From positions 1 through 33,459 of the forward strand of contig JALOPH010000006.1 of assembly GCA_025453995.1 (NCBI GenBank): a stretch of 33,459 nt of DNA, read 5' to 3'. Positions 10,190 through 16,045 of the stretch are shown piece after piece; the stretch's first letter is position 1; each line of letters begins with the position of its first letter. The notes beneath the pieces are model-generated. The model was given only the letters and a program-made list of their open reading frames with translations, did not search any database and had not been told where the DNA came from. The position numbers and the translations under genes are program-made. The DNA comes from Desulfobacterales bacterium (GTDB taxonomy: Bacteria; Desulfobacterota; Desulfobacteria; Desulfobacterales; Desulfosalsimonadaceae).

Positions 10190-10358
10190 TTAACTCTTTC
10201 CAGAATCATCCCGCTCCTTGAAAACCTCTTTTGCAGCGTAAAGCCCGTTTAAAGCAGCGGGAAACCCGGCATAAACGGCAATCTACATGAGGACTTCAAC
10301 CACTTCCTGACGGGTGCAGCCGATGTTGAGCGCGGCGTTGATGTTAAACTTTTCAGGA
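10190..10358 (-). pseudogene. Carboxymuconolactone decarboxylase-like gene, 3' fragment with internal stop
   Basis: The minus strand encodes KFNINAALNIGCTRQEVVEVLM, stop, [21 protein letters not shown] and KERDDSGKS, closely following the C-terminal half of CMD/AhpD-fold proteins. The in-frame TAG (10283-10285) replaces a codon that is usually Gln in this motif. The N-terminal half with the CxxC motif is missing, and the fragment begins inside the 3' end of the BrnA-like gene. The gene is dead. Confidence 0.7.
10192..10248. repeat. Direct repeat copy A (CMD gene tail)
   Basis: A 57-bp segment repeated at 10899-10955 in the same orientation with about 5 mismatches and no gaps. It encodes the end of the CMD-like protein. 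Together the two copies bracket the BrnT/BrnA module. Confidence 0.8.
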
Positions 10359-10577
10359 TGCTTTTTTCAACCTCTCCGCCACCCATACTTTGATGATCGA
10401 TTGTCTCGGCACGCCGAGGCGTTTTGCTTCCTTGTCTAACTGCCGGATCATCCACAAAGGAAAATCCACATTGACGCGTTTCTGTTCCTGTTGGGGTCTT
10501 TTGGCTTTTGAAATATCGATATATTGGGAAATGTCTTCATTATTATTAAATTTTTTATCAAATTCTTTAGCTTTCAT
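10353..10577 (-). CDS. brnA: BrnA-like antitoxin (ribbon-helix-helix DNA-binding), 74 aa
   Basis: Antitoxin that neutralises BrnT and represses the operon. The C-terminal half, KRVNVDFPLWMIRQLDKEAK then RLGVPRQSIIKVWVAERL, is an RHH fold: a short strand followed by two helices. The N-terminal half (MKAKEFDKKFNNNEDISQYI) binds toxin in the family. It overlaps the 3' end of brnT by 11 nt, the usual toxin-first order of BrnTA modules. The stop lies at the breakpoint with the CMD relic. Confidence 0.85.
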   Translation of the reverse strand: MKAKEFDKKFNNNEDISQYIDISKAKRPQQEQKRVNVDFPLWMIRQLDKEAKRLGVPRQSIIKVWVAERLKKAS

Positions 10578-10827
10578 ATAGTTCGATCTCCTCTTTTCTT
10601 GATCGTCTTACGGAAGTAATTCTGATACAGTCTCCCCGATAGGTGATGACGCCAGACCAATGCATATCCCTAATTTTACCAATCACCAAAAATCGGTTTT
10701 CATCAACAGTCTTGGCCGGAATTTCAATAAAATTCGTATCGCTCCATAAAGCCTGCGCTTGGATAAAATCAATTCCATGCTTCTGCATATTGATCAGACT
10801 TTTTTCAGGGTCAAATTCAAATCTCAT
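10567..10827 (-). CDS. brnT: BrnT family toxin (ribonuclease), 86 aa
   Basis: Type II toxin with a RelE-like ribonuclease fold. Diagnostic features are MRFEFDPEKSLINMQKHGIDF at the N-terminus, DENRFLVIGKI, the WSGVITYRGDCIRITSVRRSRKEE core with its Arg cluster, and about 86 residues. All expected regions are intact, so the toxin is probably active. No Shine-Dalgarno is evident close to the ATG; TATACT lies just upstream, which may be the -10 of a nearly leaderless transcript. Confidence 0.88.
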   Translation of the reverse strand: MRFEFDPEKSLINMQKHGIDFIQAQALWSDTNFIEIPAKTVDENRFLVIGKIRDMHWSGVITYRGDCIRITSVRRSRKEEIELYES

Positions 10828-10866
10828 AGTATAATAAGTATACCTTTTAAATATATTTATTCAATA

Positions 10867-10955
10867 TTATTTATATAGAAGAGCGAGGGATGATTTTGAA
10901 CTCTTCCCCGAATCATCCCGCTCTTTGAAAACCTCTTTTGCAGCATAAAGACCGT
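10867..10955 (-). pseudogene. Second copy of the CMD-like gene tail
   Basis: The minus strand reads [20 protein letters not shown] then SSLALLYK and a stop at 10867-10869. It matches the first fragment over the 57-bp repeat, then diverges. Nothing of the rest of the CMD gene precedes it. Confidence 0.6.
10899..10955. repeat. Direct repeat copy B (CMD gene tail)
   Basis: Second copy of the 57-bp repeat at 10192-10248, offset 707 bp, same orientation. Confidence 0.8.
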
Positions 10956-11106
10956 GTAGAAAAATTGAGGACGCTTCTTACCCGGATTGGGACGCCAAAC
11001 TTTATGTGGCCTCAAAAAAAAATGGCCTAATCAAAGAAAAGGCCATATCCTGGGGTGGAGCGAAAAGGAATCCAAAGAACAGCAAAGCGCTTTTTAAATT
11101 CACACA

Positions 11107-11442
11107 TCATGCGAAGTTAAGAATCATGCTATCATCCGGCATATAGGTTTTATATGGCAGACCCGATTCTCTGGCAATATATCCCGGTACCGCAATGCCT
11201 GATTCGTACTGGGCGTAATCCACAAAGGTTCTTCCGTCAATGAGCACCTTCATCCCGCTCACCGGGTTTTTCAATGGAACGATGGCTTGGACGTGATTGA
11301 ATTTCTCCTTTAGATCGGCAAATCCGAGCGTCTCCGCCATATGGCCGATATTTATTTCACGATAGTAACGTGAATTTTCAAGAATGCTGTCCTTATATGT
11401 TTCACTGATTTTGTTAATAACTGTTTTCAGATTCTTTTCCAT
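11107..11442 (-). CDS. Uncharacterised cytoplasmic protein, 111 aa
   Basis: I do not recognise a domain. The start at 11442 is chosen because AGGAGG lies 10 nt before this ATG; a longer reading to 11505 has no ribosome site. The protein (MEKNLKTVINKISETYKDSI at the N-terminus, then an alpha/beta-looking half with MKVLIDGRTFVDYAQYESGI) has no Cys, no membrane segment and no signal. It stands alone, divergent from the leader RNA and cytochrome gene. Confidence 0.7.
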   Translation of the reverse strand: MEKNLKTVINKISETYKDSILENSRYYREINIGHMAETLGFADLKEKFNHVQAIVPLKNPVSGMKVLIDGRTFVDYAQYESGIAVPGYIARESGLPYKTYMPDDSMILNFA

Positions 11443-11533
11443 AGGTTCAAACCTCCTCAGCATCCCGTCTGTTTTACAATCTATCGAGTTCACGGGATAA
11501 AGCACTCGAATCGATTAAAATCACATATAGACT

Positions 11534-11539
11534 TATAAT
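11534..11539 (+). promoter_or_regulatory. -10 element of a candidate leader RNA
   Basis: Perfect TATAAT (11534-11539) with a poor -35 (TCGATT, 11511-11516, 17-nt spacer). Predicted transcript start near 11546. Confidence 0.4.
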
Positions 11540-11545
11540 AAGTTG

Positions 11546-11732
11546 CTTTCAGCGCCTGTCAAATTGCGACAGACTCTTAAAAGCTACGGATCCCCCTTGT
11601 CATTATTTTTCAAAGAAATCAGCTTTGCATTTTTACTCTTACTCCTTTTCGTCAAAACAGAACTGAACGGGAATCGCTTTTTTGGAATTCAATCAATTGC
11701 GATTCCCGCACCCGGGGCTGCCCCGTTTTTTT
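11546..11732 (+). ncRNA. Candidate structured leader or small RNA ending in an intrinsic terminator
   Basis: About 187 nt between a TATAAT box and a strong terminator, with a 5-bp hairpin (11556-11560 with 11568-11572), a possible 6-bp long-range pair (AAAGCT near 11580-11585 with AGCTTT near 11631-11636), and a perfect 10-bp hairpin (11668-11677 with 11699-11708) just before the terminator. The block AAAAGCTACGGATC (11579-11592), preceded by GTCAAA, weakly resembles the GEMM-I (c-di-GMP/cGAMP) riboswitch core, but other core parts are missing. It ends 97 nt before the cytochrome-rhodanese gene, so it may be an attenuator-type leader or a separate sRNA. An AUG-initiated frame across 11543-11827 is not convincing as protein. 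Confidence 0.4.
11713..11732 (+). terminator. Rho-independent terminator upstream of the cytochrome gene
   Basis: CGGGG-CTG-CCCCG stem (11713-11725) followed by seven T (11726-11732). It lies in front of, not behind, the plus-strand cytochrome gene and has no supported plus-strand gene before it, hence the leader-RNA proposal. Confidence 0.75.
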
Positions 11733-11828
11733 CTGGCTTATTCTACTTTTTTAAGGCAATAGTAATAAGAATATTTCACAACCCTCCCCAAATCATTCGG
11801 TTTAATCCATTTTATAAGGAAGTTTAAA

Positions 11829-12950
11829 ATGACATCCCAAAACCGCTCCCGGGTTTTGATAATCGGAACCCTGATTTTTTCAGTAATTATTTTCCTATCA
11901 TCACAAATAAGCTGTCTCGCCCTCGATCCGATAGCAATAAAAACCACAGCTCCCGCCATTTCGGAAAAGGGTTCGGCGCTGTATCAGGCATACTGTTCCA
12001 TGTGCCACGGCATTAATGGCGAGGGATATCTTGCCGATGAAGCCAGCGCCCTTTCCAACCAGGATTTTCTGGTCAGCGCCACCGATGAGTATATCCTCCA
12101 GGGAATCCTCAGAGGAAGGCCCGGCACGCCGATGTCAGCCTGGGATAAGGAAAAAGGGGGGCCTTTAACAAAAGAAAACGCTTCAGAAATTCTGATTTTC
12201 ATACGGGCATGGCAGAAAGAACCTTCTGTAGATGTGAGCCAGGTGATTGTCGCGGGGGATTCAAAAGCCGGGGAAGATATTTATCAACGCTGGTGCGCGG
12301 CATGCCACGGAAAATACGGCGCGGGCGGGAATGCCATCAAATTAAACAACCCGGTGTTTCAGGAAACGGCCAGTGACGGGTTCATCCGGTATGCGGTTGA
12401 AAACGGACGACGCCAAACACCCATGGCCCCGTATAAAAAAATTCTAAACAATCAGCAGATCGATGATGTTGTGTGTTATACCCGAACCTTAAAGACAACA
12501 ACGCCGCTGATCGAAACCGTCGCTGTGGATGCCGGGGAATTATCCAAGACAATCCGGGACAGGGGAGTGCTCAACCCCGGAAGCACTCCGGCAAGCTTTT
12601 CACTCATAAAAAATCTTTACGTGCCGGCCGATGATGTGTTTGCCGCATATACGGCAGGCCGGTCTTTCATCATCATCGACGCCCGGCCCCAAAGTGACTA
12701 CCTCCGGTCCCACATCAAGGGCGCCATATCCATTCCCTTTTACGATATTGACGGGGCTGTGGGCCTGCTGCCCAAAGACCTGTGGATCATCTTCTATTGC
12801 GTCTGCCCCCACGCCCTGTCCGGAAAAGCGGCCGATGCCCTCAAAGCAGCAGGTTATGACAAGGTCGCGGTTCTGGATGAAGGATTTTTCTTCTGGCAGA
12901 ATAAAGGATATCCATCCGAAAGCAGCGGCAACGCAAAGATTTCAAAATAA
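11829..12950 (+). CDS. Periplasmic diheme cytochrome c-rhodanese fusion, 373 aa
   Basis: Exported electron-transfer/sulfur protein. An N-terminal signal segment (residues 8-30) is followed by two class I cytochrome c domains: heme motif CSMCH (Cys56, Cys59, His60) with likely axial Met102, and CAACH (Cys156, Cys159, His160) with likely axial Met199. The C-terminal rhodanese domain (about 262-365) has the signature IIIDARPQSDYLRSHIKGAI and an active-site loop YCVCPHALSG carrying Cys324 and Cys326. Rhodanese domains transfer sulfane sulfur through a cysteine persulfide; linking this to two hemes suggests oxidation or sensing of sulfane sulfur in the periplasm (inference). AAGGAAG precedes the ATG. 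A terminator-bearing leader lies upstream and no operon partner is evident; the next gene is convergent. Confidence 0.88.
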   Translation: MTSQNRSRVLIIGTLIFSVIIFLSSQISCLALDPIAIKTTAPAISEKGSALYQAYCSMCHGINGEGYLADEASALSNQDFLVSATDEYILQGILRGRPGTPMSAWDKEKGGPLTKENASEILIFIRAWQKEPSVDVSQVIVAGDSKAGEDIYQRWCAACHGKYGAGGNAIKLNNPVFQETASDGFIRYAVENGRRQTPMAPYKKILNNQQIDDVVCYTRTLKTTTPLIETVAVDAGELSKTIRDRGVLNPGSTPASFSLIKNLYVPADDVFAAYTAGRSFIIIDARPQSDYLRSHIKGAISIPFYDIDGAVGLLPKDLWIIFYCVCPHALSGKAADALKAAGYDKVAVLDEGFFFWQNKGYPSESSGNAKISK

Positions 12951-12975
12951 TGGATCGGCTTCCTAAAAGAAAAAT

Positions 12976-14667
12976 CTATTTCGCAAATATCTCACCGAAT
13001 CTGTCTCCGGGCTCAGCCGCACCATAGATTTCGTGTATCGTCAAGGGATAATTTCCCTCGAAATGATTAAGGAAAGGGGTCCATTGGATGATTGGCGTTT
13101 CTGACATGGAGTTATTGTTTCTGACAACGGCAACGGCGCCTGCATCGGTTATTTGAAGGACATTGTGGTTGTAGGGAATGTCGTAACAGGGTATTCCGAC
13201 TGCCAGATCCATGACATCCCGGCCTTCAAAGTCGTCAGCCGCCAATGCATACCCTGTTTTGGCTGAACCATATTGCCACTGATCGCTGAAATTAAGCCCA
13301 GGCAATAAATATTCATTGAGATATGCCGTAAAAGTTTGAAGTCCGGTTTTGCTGCCATAACGTATTTTCACTCCTCCGCTGAAGCTGTTTAGGTAGTTCA
13401 TTGCGAAGTCCTCGAATCCATCATTGTCAAGATCAGCGCTTGCGAAGCACGCACTCCATCCGTAAAATTCCTGCGTCTTTTTTGACGAGAGCCTCTTGGG
13501 CGTTCCATAAATGACATGCACGGTGCGGTCGCCAGGAGCGCCCACCAACAATTCATCGCAAAGGTCTCCGTTGAAGTCTCCGCTTCCCAGAACGTTTCCA
13601 TATAAATCTCCGTCCTGAGCCTTGTTATTTCCGCCATCGGTGATTTGAGTCCAGACCTGGTTACCGTCTGCAATGAGCCCTTGATCTTTCCTGCCGTAAA
13701 TCACGCTGACCGCGCCAAACGACTGATAATCGACACCTTCTTCTTTGGGGGCGCCTACCGCGAGATCAGATGTTCCATCGCCGTTAAAATCCCCTGCAGC
13801 AAGCGCAGAACCGAATTGATCACGGTACTCGCTTTTCTCCCGAAGTCCGTTAAAACCCTGCCGCCAGAGCTGAAGTCTCGTCATCCCGAAACGGGACCCA
13901 TACCAAACCAATACCGCGCCTCGCCCAGTTCCGGGTGTCATCGTATCGCCGGCAGCGTCAGGTGCGCCGACAGCAATGTCGGCGTATTCATCAGCGTCAA
14001 AGTTCCCTGCGGCGATCGATATGCCAAACAAGCTTCTTTTGCGCATCCAATGAAACCAGGAGAGAAAGGAGGAATTTGATCCGGATAATCCATCTGGTCC
14101 GCCAGAAAAAATCACCACATCCCCGCCGCCTGGAATATCTGGTTGATCGCAATACGGGACTCCGACAGCCAGGTCTGAGTATCCGTCGCCGTTAAAATCA
14201 CCGGCCGCGAGCGCCCTGCCGAATTGCGCTCCCTTCTGCACGATCCCTGGAACACCTTTTGTGTTCTGGGTAAAAAATTTGTTATTAATTCCGGTTAAAC
14301 CATCCGCCGATCCATAGATGATATTGACGGCGCCGGCGTCTGCAGTCTTTCCCACATCCTCATAAGGAACGCCGACGGCTAAATCCGCATAGCCGTCAGC
14401 GTTGAAATCGATATGAGGTTTTGCTTCCAGTTTATTAGATGCAAAAAAAGTCAGACCTGCAAGAATTCCGAATATTGTTCGTATGGTTTTATTTCTTAAA
14501 GATTCGGTCGTCATGAACGCAGCCAACGCTTTGATAAACGACCGTATTCTAAAGACATCAACTGTCGTTTTCAAAAGTTTTTGCTGTCTTTGTGAGATCA
14601 CGCGCTGCGCATCAATATTTTCAACAATAGTCTCTTTGCGGGATTGATTCGGGAAGTTGATATGCAT
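12976..14667 (-). CDS. FG-GAP (integrin-alpha-like) seven-bladed propeller protein, 563 aa
   Basis: Exported beta-propeller protein. Seven FG-GAP calcium-binding repeats can be followed: DFNADGYADLAVGVP, DFNGDGYSDLAVGVP, NFDADEYADIAVGAP, DFNGDGTSDLAVGAP, DFNGDLCDELLVGAP, DLDNDGFEDFAMNYL and DFEGRDVMDLAVGIP, giving one full propeller. Between them are AGAVNIIYGS-type strands. Unusually, about 51 charged residues precede a secretion-like hydrophobic stretch (TIFGILAGLTFFASNKLEA, about 64-82), so the true start could be the internal Met52. However, the strong AGGAGG ribosome site belongs to the ATG at 14667. Such proteins bind ligands or partner proteins at the cell surface; the exact role is unknown. 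Convergent with the cytochrome-rhodanese gene (25-bp gap). Confidence 0.85.
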   Translation of the reverse strand: MHINFPNQSRKETIVENIDAQRVISQRQQKLLKTTVDVFRIRSFIKALAAFMTTESLRNKTIRTIFGILAGLTFFASNKLEAKPHIDFNADGYADLAVGVPYEDVGKTADAGAVNIIYGSADGLTGINNKFFTQNTKGVPGIVQKGAQFGRALAAGDFNGDGYSDLAVGVPYCDQPDIPGGGDVVIFSGGPDGLSGSNSSFLSWFHWMRKRSLFGISIAAGNFDADEYADIAVGAPDAAGDTMTPGTGRGAVLVWYGSRFGMTRLQLWRQGFNGLREKSEYRDQFGSALAAGDFNGDGTSDLAVGAPKEEGVDYQSFGAVSVIYGRKDQGLIADGNQVWTQITDGGNNKAQDGDLYGNVLGSGDFNGDLCDELLVGAPGDRTVHVIYGTPKRLSSKKTQEFYGWSACFASADLDNDGFEDFAMNYLNSFSGGVKIRYGSKTGLQTFTAYLNEYLLPGLNFSDQWQYGSAKTGYALAADDFEGRDVMDLAVGIPCYDIPYNHNVLQITDAGAVAVVRNNNSMSETPIIQWTPFLNHFEGNYPLTIHEIYGAAEPGDRFGEIFAK

Positions 14668-15259: not shown

Positions 15260-16045
15260 ATGAATAATTTATTAAAGATACTGTTGATATCGATATCTGC
15301 AAGTGCGACCGCCTGTTCTTTATACTTTACCATCCCCTTTCAGGCGTATCAGATGTCCAAAGGGTTGCAAGTCGGCACACCCGCACTGCCGTATTATGCG
15401 TATTCGAAAACCTCGCTTGAAGTCATCAATGATGAATTCAAAAAAGCCAATGCAAAGGTGACCCTTGAGGATACTTACACTTACGCATACGGCAAATCCT
15501 TCAAGGGGCTTCCACCTGACGGGGACACGGGGCAGGAGTTCAAGGAGATGTCCACTGCATCCCGATATCTTCAGAATATACTGAAATCCAAGGGCGTGGC
15601 GGACGCCGACAATTATTTCATGACCAGCATTGATTCAGCGCGGTCTTTTGGATTTACGCTGATTGCGGCTGTTTATCGACCGGATGAAACGCTCATCGTG
15701 TTTGATAAGTTCGGCGCATCCAGCGAGAACACCCTGACCTGCGATGATCCGCCTTATTATCAGCCCTACCGGTTCGATTGCAGGGGAAAGCCTCTGGACA
15801 TCGTATATGAATGGGCTGCGGTGCCCAATGACTGCTTTGACAAGCAGGGGCATCAGGCCATCCTGCTGACGTTGACAGCCGGCAAAATTCTGGAGAAAAA
15901 TCCGAAGACCAATTACTGGGAAGCGGAAAGAAAGTGGATCGCCGGCAATTATAAATCCGTGGTCATTGATCAGGACTACATGGTCTGCCGGGAACTGGGG
16001 ATTGAAACAGGATACACCCAGCAGAAAAACGTGTTCACCAACTAA
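15260..16045 (+). CDS. Exported protein of unknown function, 261 aa
   Basis: Start MNNLLKILLISISASATACS with a signal segment of about 18 residues; Cys19 could be lipidated, but the lipobox (ATAC) is weak. The mature part is soluble, with PYYAYSKTSLEVINDEFKKA, a YAYGKSFKGLPPDGDTG loop and a strand-like core (SARSFGFTLIAAVYRPDETLIVFDKFG). Four further cysteines in TCDDPP, DCRGK, NDCFDK and MVCREL could form two disulfides in the periplasm. GAAAGGA precedes the ATG. I recognise no family. The downstream EVE-domain gene starts 25 nt later, so the two may be co-transcribed. Confidence 0.75.
   Translation: MNNLLKILLISISASATACSLYFTIPFQAYQMSKGLQVGTPALPYYAYSKTSLEVINDEFKKANAKVTLEDTYTYAYGKSFKGLPPDGDTGQEFKEMSTASRYLQNILKSKGVADADNYFMTSIDSARSFGFTLIAAVYRPDETLIVFDKFGASSENTLTCDDPPYYQPYRFDCRGKPLDIVYEWAAVPNDCFDKQGHQAILLTLTAGKILEKNPKTNYWEAERKWIAGNYKSVVIDQDYMVCRELGIETGYTQQKNVFTN

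Follow-up and report, generated by a model that had tools for sequence, protein, structure and literature searches.

A terminator-ended segment upstream of a cytochrome c-rhodanese gene in a Desulfobacterales bacterium: possible reverse side of a divergent promoter

Why should an intrinsic terminator lie in front of a gene? The question is raised by the window, the whole stretch of 33,459 nt analyzed here from a Desulfobacterales bacterium, in which a segment (11534-11732) that begins with a TATAAT box and ends in a terminator precedes a gene for a cytochrome c-rhodanese fusion protein. The intergenic region, 386 nt in length, separates the start of a divergent 111-aa gene (11442, minus strand) from that of the cytochrome c-rhodanese gene (11829, plus strand), and 96 nt lie between the end of the terminator and the start codon of the latter. 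A sequence-only reading had proposed a leader or small RNA with its own promoter, several hairpins, and a weak likeness to the GEMM-I riboswitch. The letters on which it relied (TATAAT, AAAAGCTACGGATC, GTCAAA, and CGGGG-CTG-CCCCG followed by seven T) were all in place, and the features of the locus are as follows.

11107-11442, minus strand: divergent gene for a conserved uncharacterized protein of 111 aa, the proposed main product of the shared promoter
11534-11539, plus strand: TATAAT, the -10 region of the divergent gene read from the opposite strand, with no -35 box; predicted start at 11546
11535-11540, minus strand: TATTAT, -10 box of the divergent gene; predicted start at ~11528, with 92 nt from the box to the start codon
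11546-11732, plus strand: predicted non-coding transcript of ~187 nt, as delimited by -10 box and terminator
11556-11572: inverted repeat CTGTC-AAATTGC-GACAG, recognized from sequence and fold, overlapping the minus-strand -35 box
11557-11562, minus strand: TTGACA, -35 box of the divergent gene (11 of 12 positions jointly with TATTAT)
11558-11563: GTCAAA, recognized from sequence
11579-11592: AAAAGCTACGGATC, recognized from sequence
11668-11677 and 11699-11708, plus strand: perfect 10-bp stem CGGGAATCGC/GCGATTCCCG with a 21-nt loop, immediately 5' of the terminator
11713-11732, plus strand: intrinsic terminator, CGGGG-CTG-CCCCG (11713-11725; 5 G-C pairs, CTG loop) plus seven T (11726-11732)
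11829-12950, plus strand: cytochrome c-rhodanese fusion gene of 373 aa (Pfam Cytochrome_CBB3, Cytochrom_C, and Rhodanese)

The promoter scan detected TTGACA-16-TATTAT on the minus strand (11562-11535), a match of 11/12 that only 6 of 2000 shuffled versions of the intergenic region attained. No plus-strand promoter of at least 9/12 was found in this region by the same scan: the TATAAT box, previously taken as an independent plus-strand promoter, had a best -35 match of only 3/6 at spacings of 14-20 bp, and the top plus-strand candidate by count (8/12, at ~11577) was located within the proposed RNA itself. At a looser scan threshold, three promoters were found in 10800-13100 against 4.0 expected from shuffles, which is no excess.

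The divergent 111-aa protein was detected in 32 of 98 genomes, including its own (E<=0.001). It had no Pfam match, no NCBIfam match over the cut-off, and a best match of E 0.17 to PDB sequences; by these comparisons, it appears to be a conserved uncharacterized family across the order. Among the 31 orthologues besides its own, 29 loci were read, with start codons placed from the alignment. A promoter of at least 9/12 within 200 nt of the start was present in 13 of the 29 (shuffle mean 4.3, sd 1.7) and one of at least 10/12 in seven (shuffle mean 0.76, sd 0.83); none of 200 shuffle sets attained either count, while the remaining 16 orthologues had no 9/12 promoter. Since the minus strand matches 11/12, the plus strand lacks a -35 box, and the orthologues are enriched for promoters, the -10 region (11534-11540) most likely belongs to the minus strand, as part of the promoter of the divergent gene. 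The CTGTC-AAATTGC-GACAG repeat at 11556-11572 may be an operator or a small hairpin.

Further along the minus strand, a BrnT toxin (Pfam) is encoded at 10567-10827 and is followed by a 74-aa protein that we take to resemble a BrnA-type antitoxin; 10353-10827 is likely a type II toxin-antitoxin pair.

The two faces of the -10 region have the geometry of a bidirectional promoter. In passages of PMC12825309 and PMC10268837, bacterial bidirectional promoters are described as having a near-symmetrical -10 with exchanged -7 and -11 positions and starts most often 18 bp apart, and a T at -18 is said to be able to stimulate transcription without other elements. At our locus, the plus-strand TATAAT and minus-strand TATTAT are offset by one base; 11535 and 11539 are -11 and -7 of one face and -7 and -11 of the other; and the starts predicted at the usual offset, 11528 (minus, A) and 11546 (plus, C), are 18 bp apart, within the 7-25 bp by which such promoters are recognized. 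The T at -18 is present for the plus face (11528) and absent for the minus face, which has a -35 box instead. That the predicted plus start is a C, next to a G at 11545, counts against plus-strand transcription, as does the missing -18T of the minus face against the arrangement as a whole. Moreover, a minus strand that reads TATTATA will almost automatically show TATAAT on its complement, so that the geometry is weak evidence of plus-strand transcription: suggestive, and not an independent proof. The locus thus resembles the promoters described by Warman, Grainger and colleagues (in the same passages of PMC10268837 and PMC12825309) in its near-symmetrical shared -10 between divergent genes, the -7/-11 exchange, the 18-bp distance, and the plus-face -18T; it differs from those described there in that its starts are predicted, one face has a near-consensus -35 and the other none, and the weak face is closed by an intrinsic terminator.

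The terminator itself was above chance: among 2000 dinucleotide shuffles of the 386-nt region between the two genes, just one produced a plus-strand site of this quality (at least 5 G-C pairs and 7 T of 8). Against this, the looser scan threshold gave five terminators in 10800-13100 where 3.2 were expected, no excess over chance. CGGGGNNNCCCCGTTTTT was found once in the genome assembly (91.7% complete), and exact CGGGGCTGCCCCGTTTTT was present in one of 97 other relatives searched (G006). The sequence-only reading was correct in placing a terminator-ended segment before the gene, but the promoter on which it relied is best read as that of the divergent neighbor, on the other strand.

A base rate was obtained from 60 stretches (675,204 bases of the 3.65-Mb genome) and the window, comprising 277 intergenic regions, with genes of at least 100 aa called by a crude longest-ORF rule and gaps of at least 50 bp; some of the stretches were picked for weak segment matches or GEMM-I hits, and the rest by contig number. 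Strong terminator-like sites (at least 4 G-C pairs and at least 6 T of 8) numbered 21, or 20 when the borders were drawn slightly differently, against ~2 in shuffles. Not all of them are gene terminators, because sites on the wrong strand in tandem regions (six) were about as frequent as those on the right strand (seven). Only three were located in the 52 divergent regions: besides that of the window, these were a site in a trp leader (L091) and a site 3' of a tRNA (L082). Both of the other cases hold an RNA element, a trp leader attenuator and a tRNA, so that within the sampled part of this genome a terminator placed between divergent genes tends to accompany a genuine RNA. In this respect, the general instinct of the sequence-only reading is supported.

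The trp leader attenuator (L091, 5829-5999; G000:C105) encodes the leader peptide MIPRNNLTYQTLNSRFWWWWRLT with WWWW (four Trp codons). Similar to the window segment, it lies between divergent genes, and its intrinsic terminator is on the same strand as the gene that follows; unlike the window segment, which has neither on the plus strand, it has an upstream TTGACA and the WWWW leader peptide. The leader as a whole (L091, 5829-6042) carries two tandem terminators before trpEGD-like genes, names that we assigned from the translations.

The reading that we prefer, with a probability of about 0.5, takes the segment as a divergent (bidirectional) promoter seen from its reverse side and followed by a terminator, by which a non-coding transcript of ~187 nt would be stopped before the cytochrome gene. 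The strong minus face, TTGACA-16-TATTAT, would serve the conserved 111-aa gene (11107-11442), and the near-symmetrical -10 would let the plus strand read TATAAT one base away. RNA polymerase bound in the reverse orientation would then make the ~187-nt non-coding RNA from 11546, and this RNA would end at 11713-11732 before running into the cytochrome c-rhodanese gene. Transcription of the plus face, activity of the terminator, and the lack of any sequence-specific role for the RNA are inferred. This reading is favored by the fact that no plausible plus-strand gene that the terminator could serve was found upstream, where plus-strand ORFs of at least 50 aa overlie minus-strand genes. The arrangement would then be close to ordinary.

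A transcription attenuator, in which the cytochrome c-rhodanese mRNA would begin with this RNA as its 5' leader and some signal would let polymerase pass the terminator under certain conditions, is a tentative alternative and rather unlikely. It is favored by the lack of a convincing promoter downstream of the terminator and ahead of the gene (7/12 at best), by the trp leader attenuator in a like position in the same genome, and by an alternative pairing: in the minimum-energy fold, ~11579-11597 pairs with the left arm and T-run of the terminator, which is then not formed. Because the free and terminator-forced ensembles are only ~0.55 kcal/mol apart, such an alternative state does exist in the predicted folds. 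However, the cost of forcing the terminator was no greater than with shuffled 5' parts, 42 of 200 of which gave an equal or larger cost (mean 0.46). Nor did the segment contain a credible leader peptide: none started with ATG or GTG, and the sole closed TTG frame has 13 codons and no evident ribosome site.

Comparison of the cytochrome c-rhodanese gene with its relatives also argued against an attenuator. Orthologues were found in four genomes of one other genus in the family (61-66% identity), together with one more distant partial match (37%); a protein scan of the genome contigs returned one relative (L053). In the three orthologues with complete upstream regions, the upstream DNA was unrelated to that of the window, and the upstream gene was different in each, from which it follows that the neighborhood has been reshuffled. 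A four-sequence alignment gave only AT-rich likeness, and a conserved upstream motif was rejected as a candidate; the best shared piece, which runs up to the start codon, was 24 nt at 79% (E 0.26). In one of these relatives (G014), the cytochrome gene and its upstream neighbor are separated by a terminator-like hairpin and T-run, and for this reason the promoter is probably close to the gene there (best match 8/12). A narrower version, improbable in our estimation, is an attenuator specific to this lineage, with its two states nearly equal and its bidirectional promoter shared with the 111-aa gene, through which the cytochrome c-rhodanese would answer a redox or sulfur signal.

Two other genes of this neighborhood may be mentioned. 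A 261-aa protein with no NCBIfam match (15260-16045, plus strand) has relatives that adjoin the cytochrome c-rhodanese gene in the same direction at three loci (L018, L019, and L020), a linkage that suggests a shared function. In the window, the two are separated by a convergent gene (12976-14667, minus strand), 3' of the cytochrome gene, for a 563-aa FG-GAP (integrin-type beta-propeller) protein.

It is also doubtful, somewhat more so than the general attenuator, that the terminator is a relic or a product of chance, left by a rearranged or lost plus-strand gene, or that the transcript is never made. The different upstream neighbors of the cytochrome gene in the three relatives, and the terminator-like hairpin that also precedes it in G014, are consistent with such a history. 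On the other side, the letters of the terminator are intact, and no gene remnant was recognizable. The 94-codon TTG frame (11543-11827) was rejected as coding: it had no NCBIfam match and only weak, mostly broken matches in 19 of 39 other genomes (best E 0.003), and an equally long open stretch occurred in 152 of 2000 shuffles.

There is little likelihood, in our view, that the segment yields a small RNA in its own right, acting in trans and confined to this lineage. A compact promoter-to-terminator unit of ~187 nt, with a stable 10-bp stem (11668-11708; pair probability 0.93-1.0) beside the terminator, would suit such an RNA. Against it stand the plus-strand TATAAT with no -35 box, the lack of any Rfam match, and an ordinary fold: the 187-nt z-score was -0.85, and 38 of 200 shuffles were equally stable or better, so the several hairpins that had been remarked on do not amount to unusual structure.

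Conservation of the segment argued in the same direction. Matches in the 97 relatives, all of other genera, were confined to pieces of 20-51 nt in eight genomes (E<=0.01; best seven candidates per genome), and an 18-nt core with one mismatch allowed was found in only two of them. Among 388 other genomes sampled from the order, pieces of 22-51 nt were found in seven (E<=0.001; best two candidates per genome); six of these seven fall on 11596-11673, and four overlap at 11607-11620. At four of six foreign loci inspected (L009, L010, L125, and L126), the match was located inside a frame of 380-450 codons, on account of which the pieces look like chance matches of AT-rich letters, not copies of an element; at the other two (L016 and L124), the longest frames over the match were 49 and 87 codons. 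Plasmid and phage records gave nothing for the segment at E<=0.01. Thus, no homologues were detectable in the genomes searched, and because only pieces of 22-51 nt matched in the 388 genomes (best two candidates per genome), these searches do not support a new family of conserved regulatory RNAs.

Within its own genome, the segment was single-copy. A dispersed repeat was rejected: the best second place (44 nt at 80%, E 0.054) was in L002; this stretch, 80% identical to 11604-11647 of the window, stands beside a longer hairpin repeat (L002, ~1490-1600; G000:C212), a long hairpin of GTACTCG-type repeats.

The suspected GEMM-I likeness was examined at several levels. At the gathering cut-off, Rfam gave no match in the whole 33,459-nt window, and a targeted search of 11400-11900 with the cyclic-dinucleotide families, including GEMM-I (RF01051), gave none up to E = 10. 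Other Rfam matches up to E = 10 (a miRNA and a streptococcal sRNA, both on the minus strand, HOTAIR, and a viral pseudoknot) were far below their cut-offs and were rejected. RF01051 matches over the cut-off were obtained at three places elsewhere in the same genome and in 33 of 40 genomes (its own included), and therefore the Rfam search works in this group. A local covariance model built from seven RF01051 hits scored the genome's own three GEMM-I RNAs, which were members of the training set, at 80.7, 77.3, and 58.8 bits. With default filters, this model had no hit in the window at E = 10 or better; with the filters off, it gave 0.4, -0.3, and -1.1 bits on the plus strand and 2.9 and 1.8 bits on the minus strand within 11534-11732, and the best score of the 701 bases scanned (5.9 bits) was located outside the segment. 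None of the scores in the segment reached the RF01051 gathering cut-off of 35 bits, and the conserved core GGCAAACC...GACGCAAAGCCACGG, taken from an alignment of the seven family hits, was absent. Like GEMM-I (the c-di-GMP-I riboswitch), the segment is placed before a cytochrome gene, and the link between this class and cytochrome genes in Geobacter agrees with the passages on GEMM-Ib in PMC6456294; unlike GEMM-I, it has neither the sequence core nor the fold (~0 bits). A diverged GEMM-I riboswitch for c-di-GMP or cGAMP, whose sole support is the brief resemblance between AAAAGCTACGGATC and the core, is thus refuted at the sequence level by the absence of any Rfam match and by at most 0.4 bits on the plus strand against 58.8-80.7 for the genome's own, and we regard it as extremely improbable.

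A false riboswitch lead has thereby been removed, and the locus illustrates how a neighboring gene's promoter, read from behind, can present a perfect TATAAT. If both faces fire, the terminator would close the idle face of a bidirectional promoter and shield the next gene, here that of the cytochrome c-rhodanese fusion protein.
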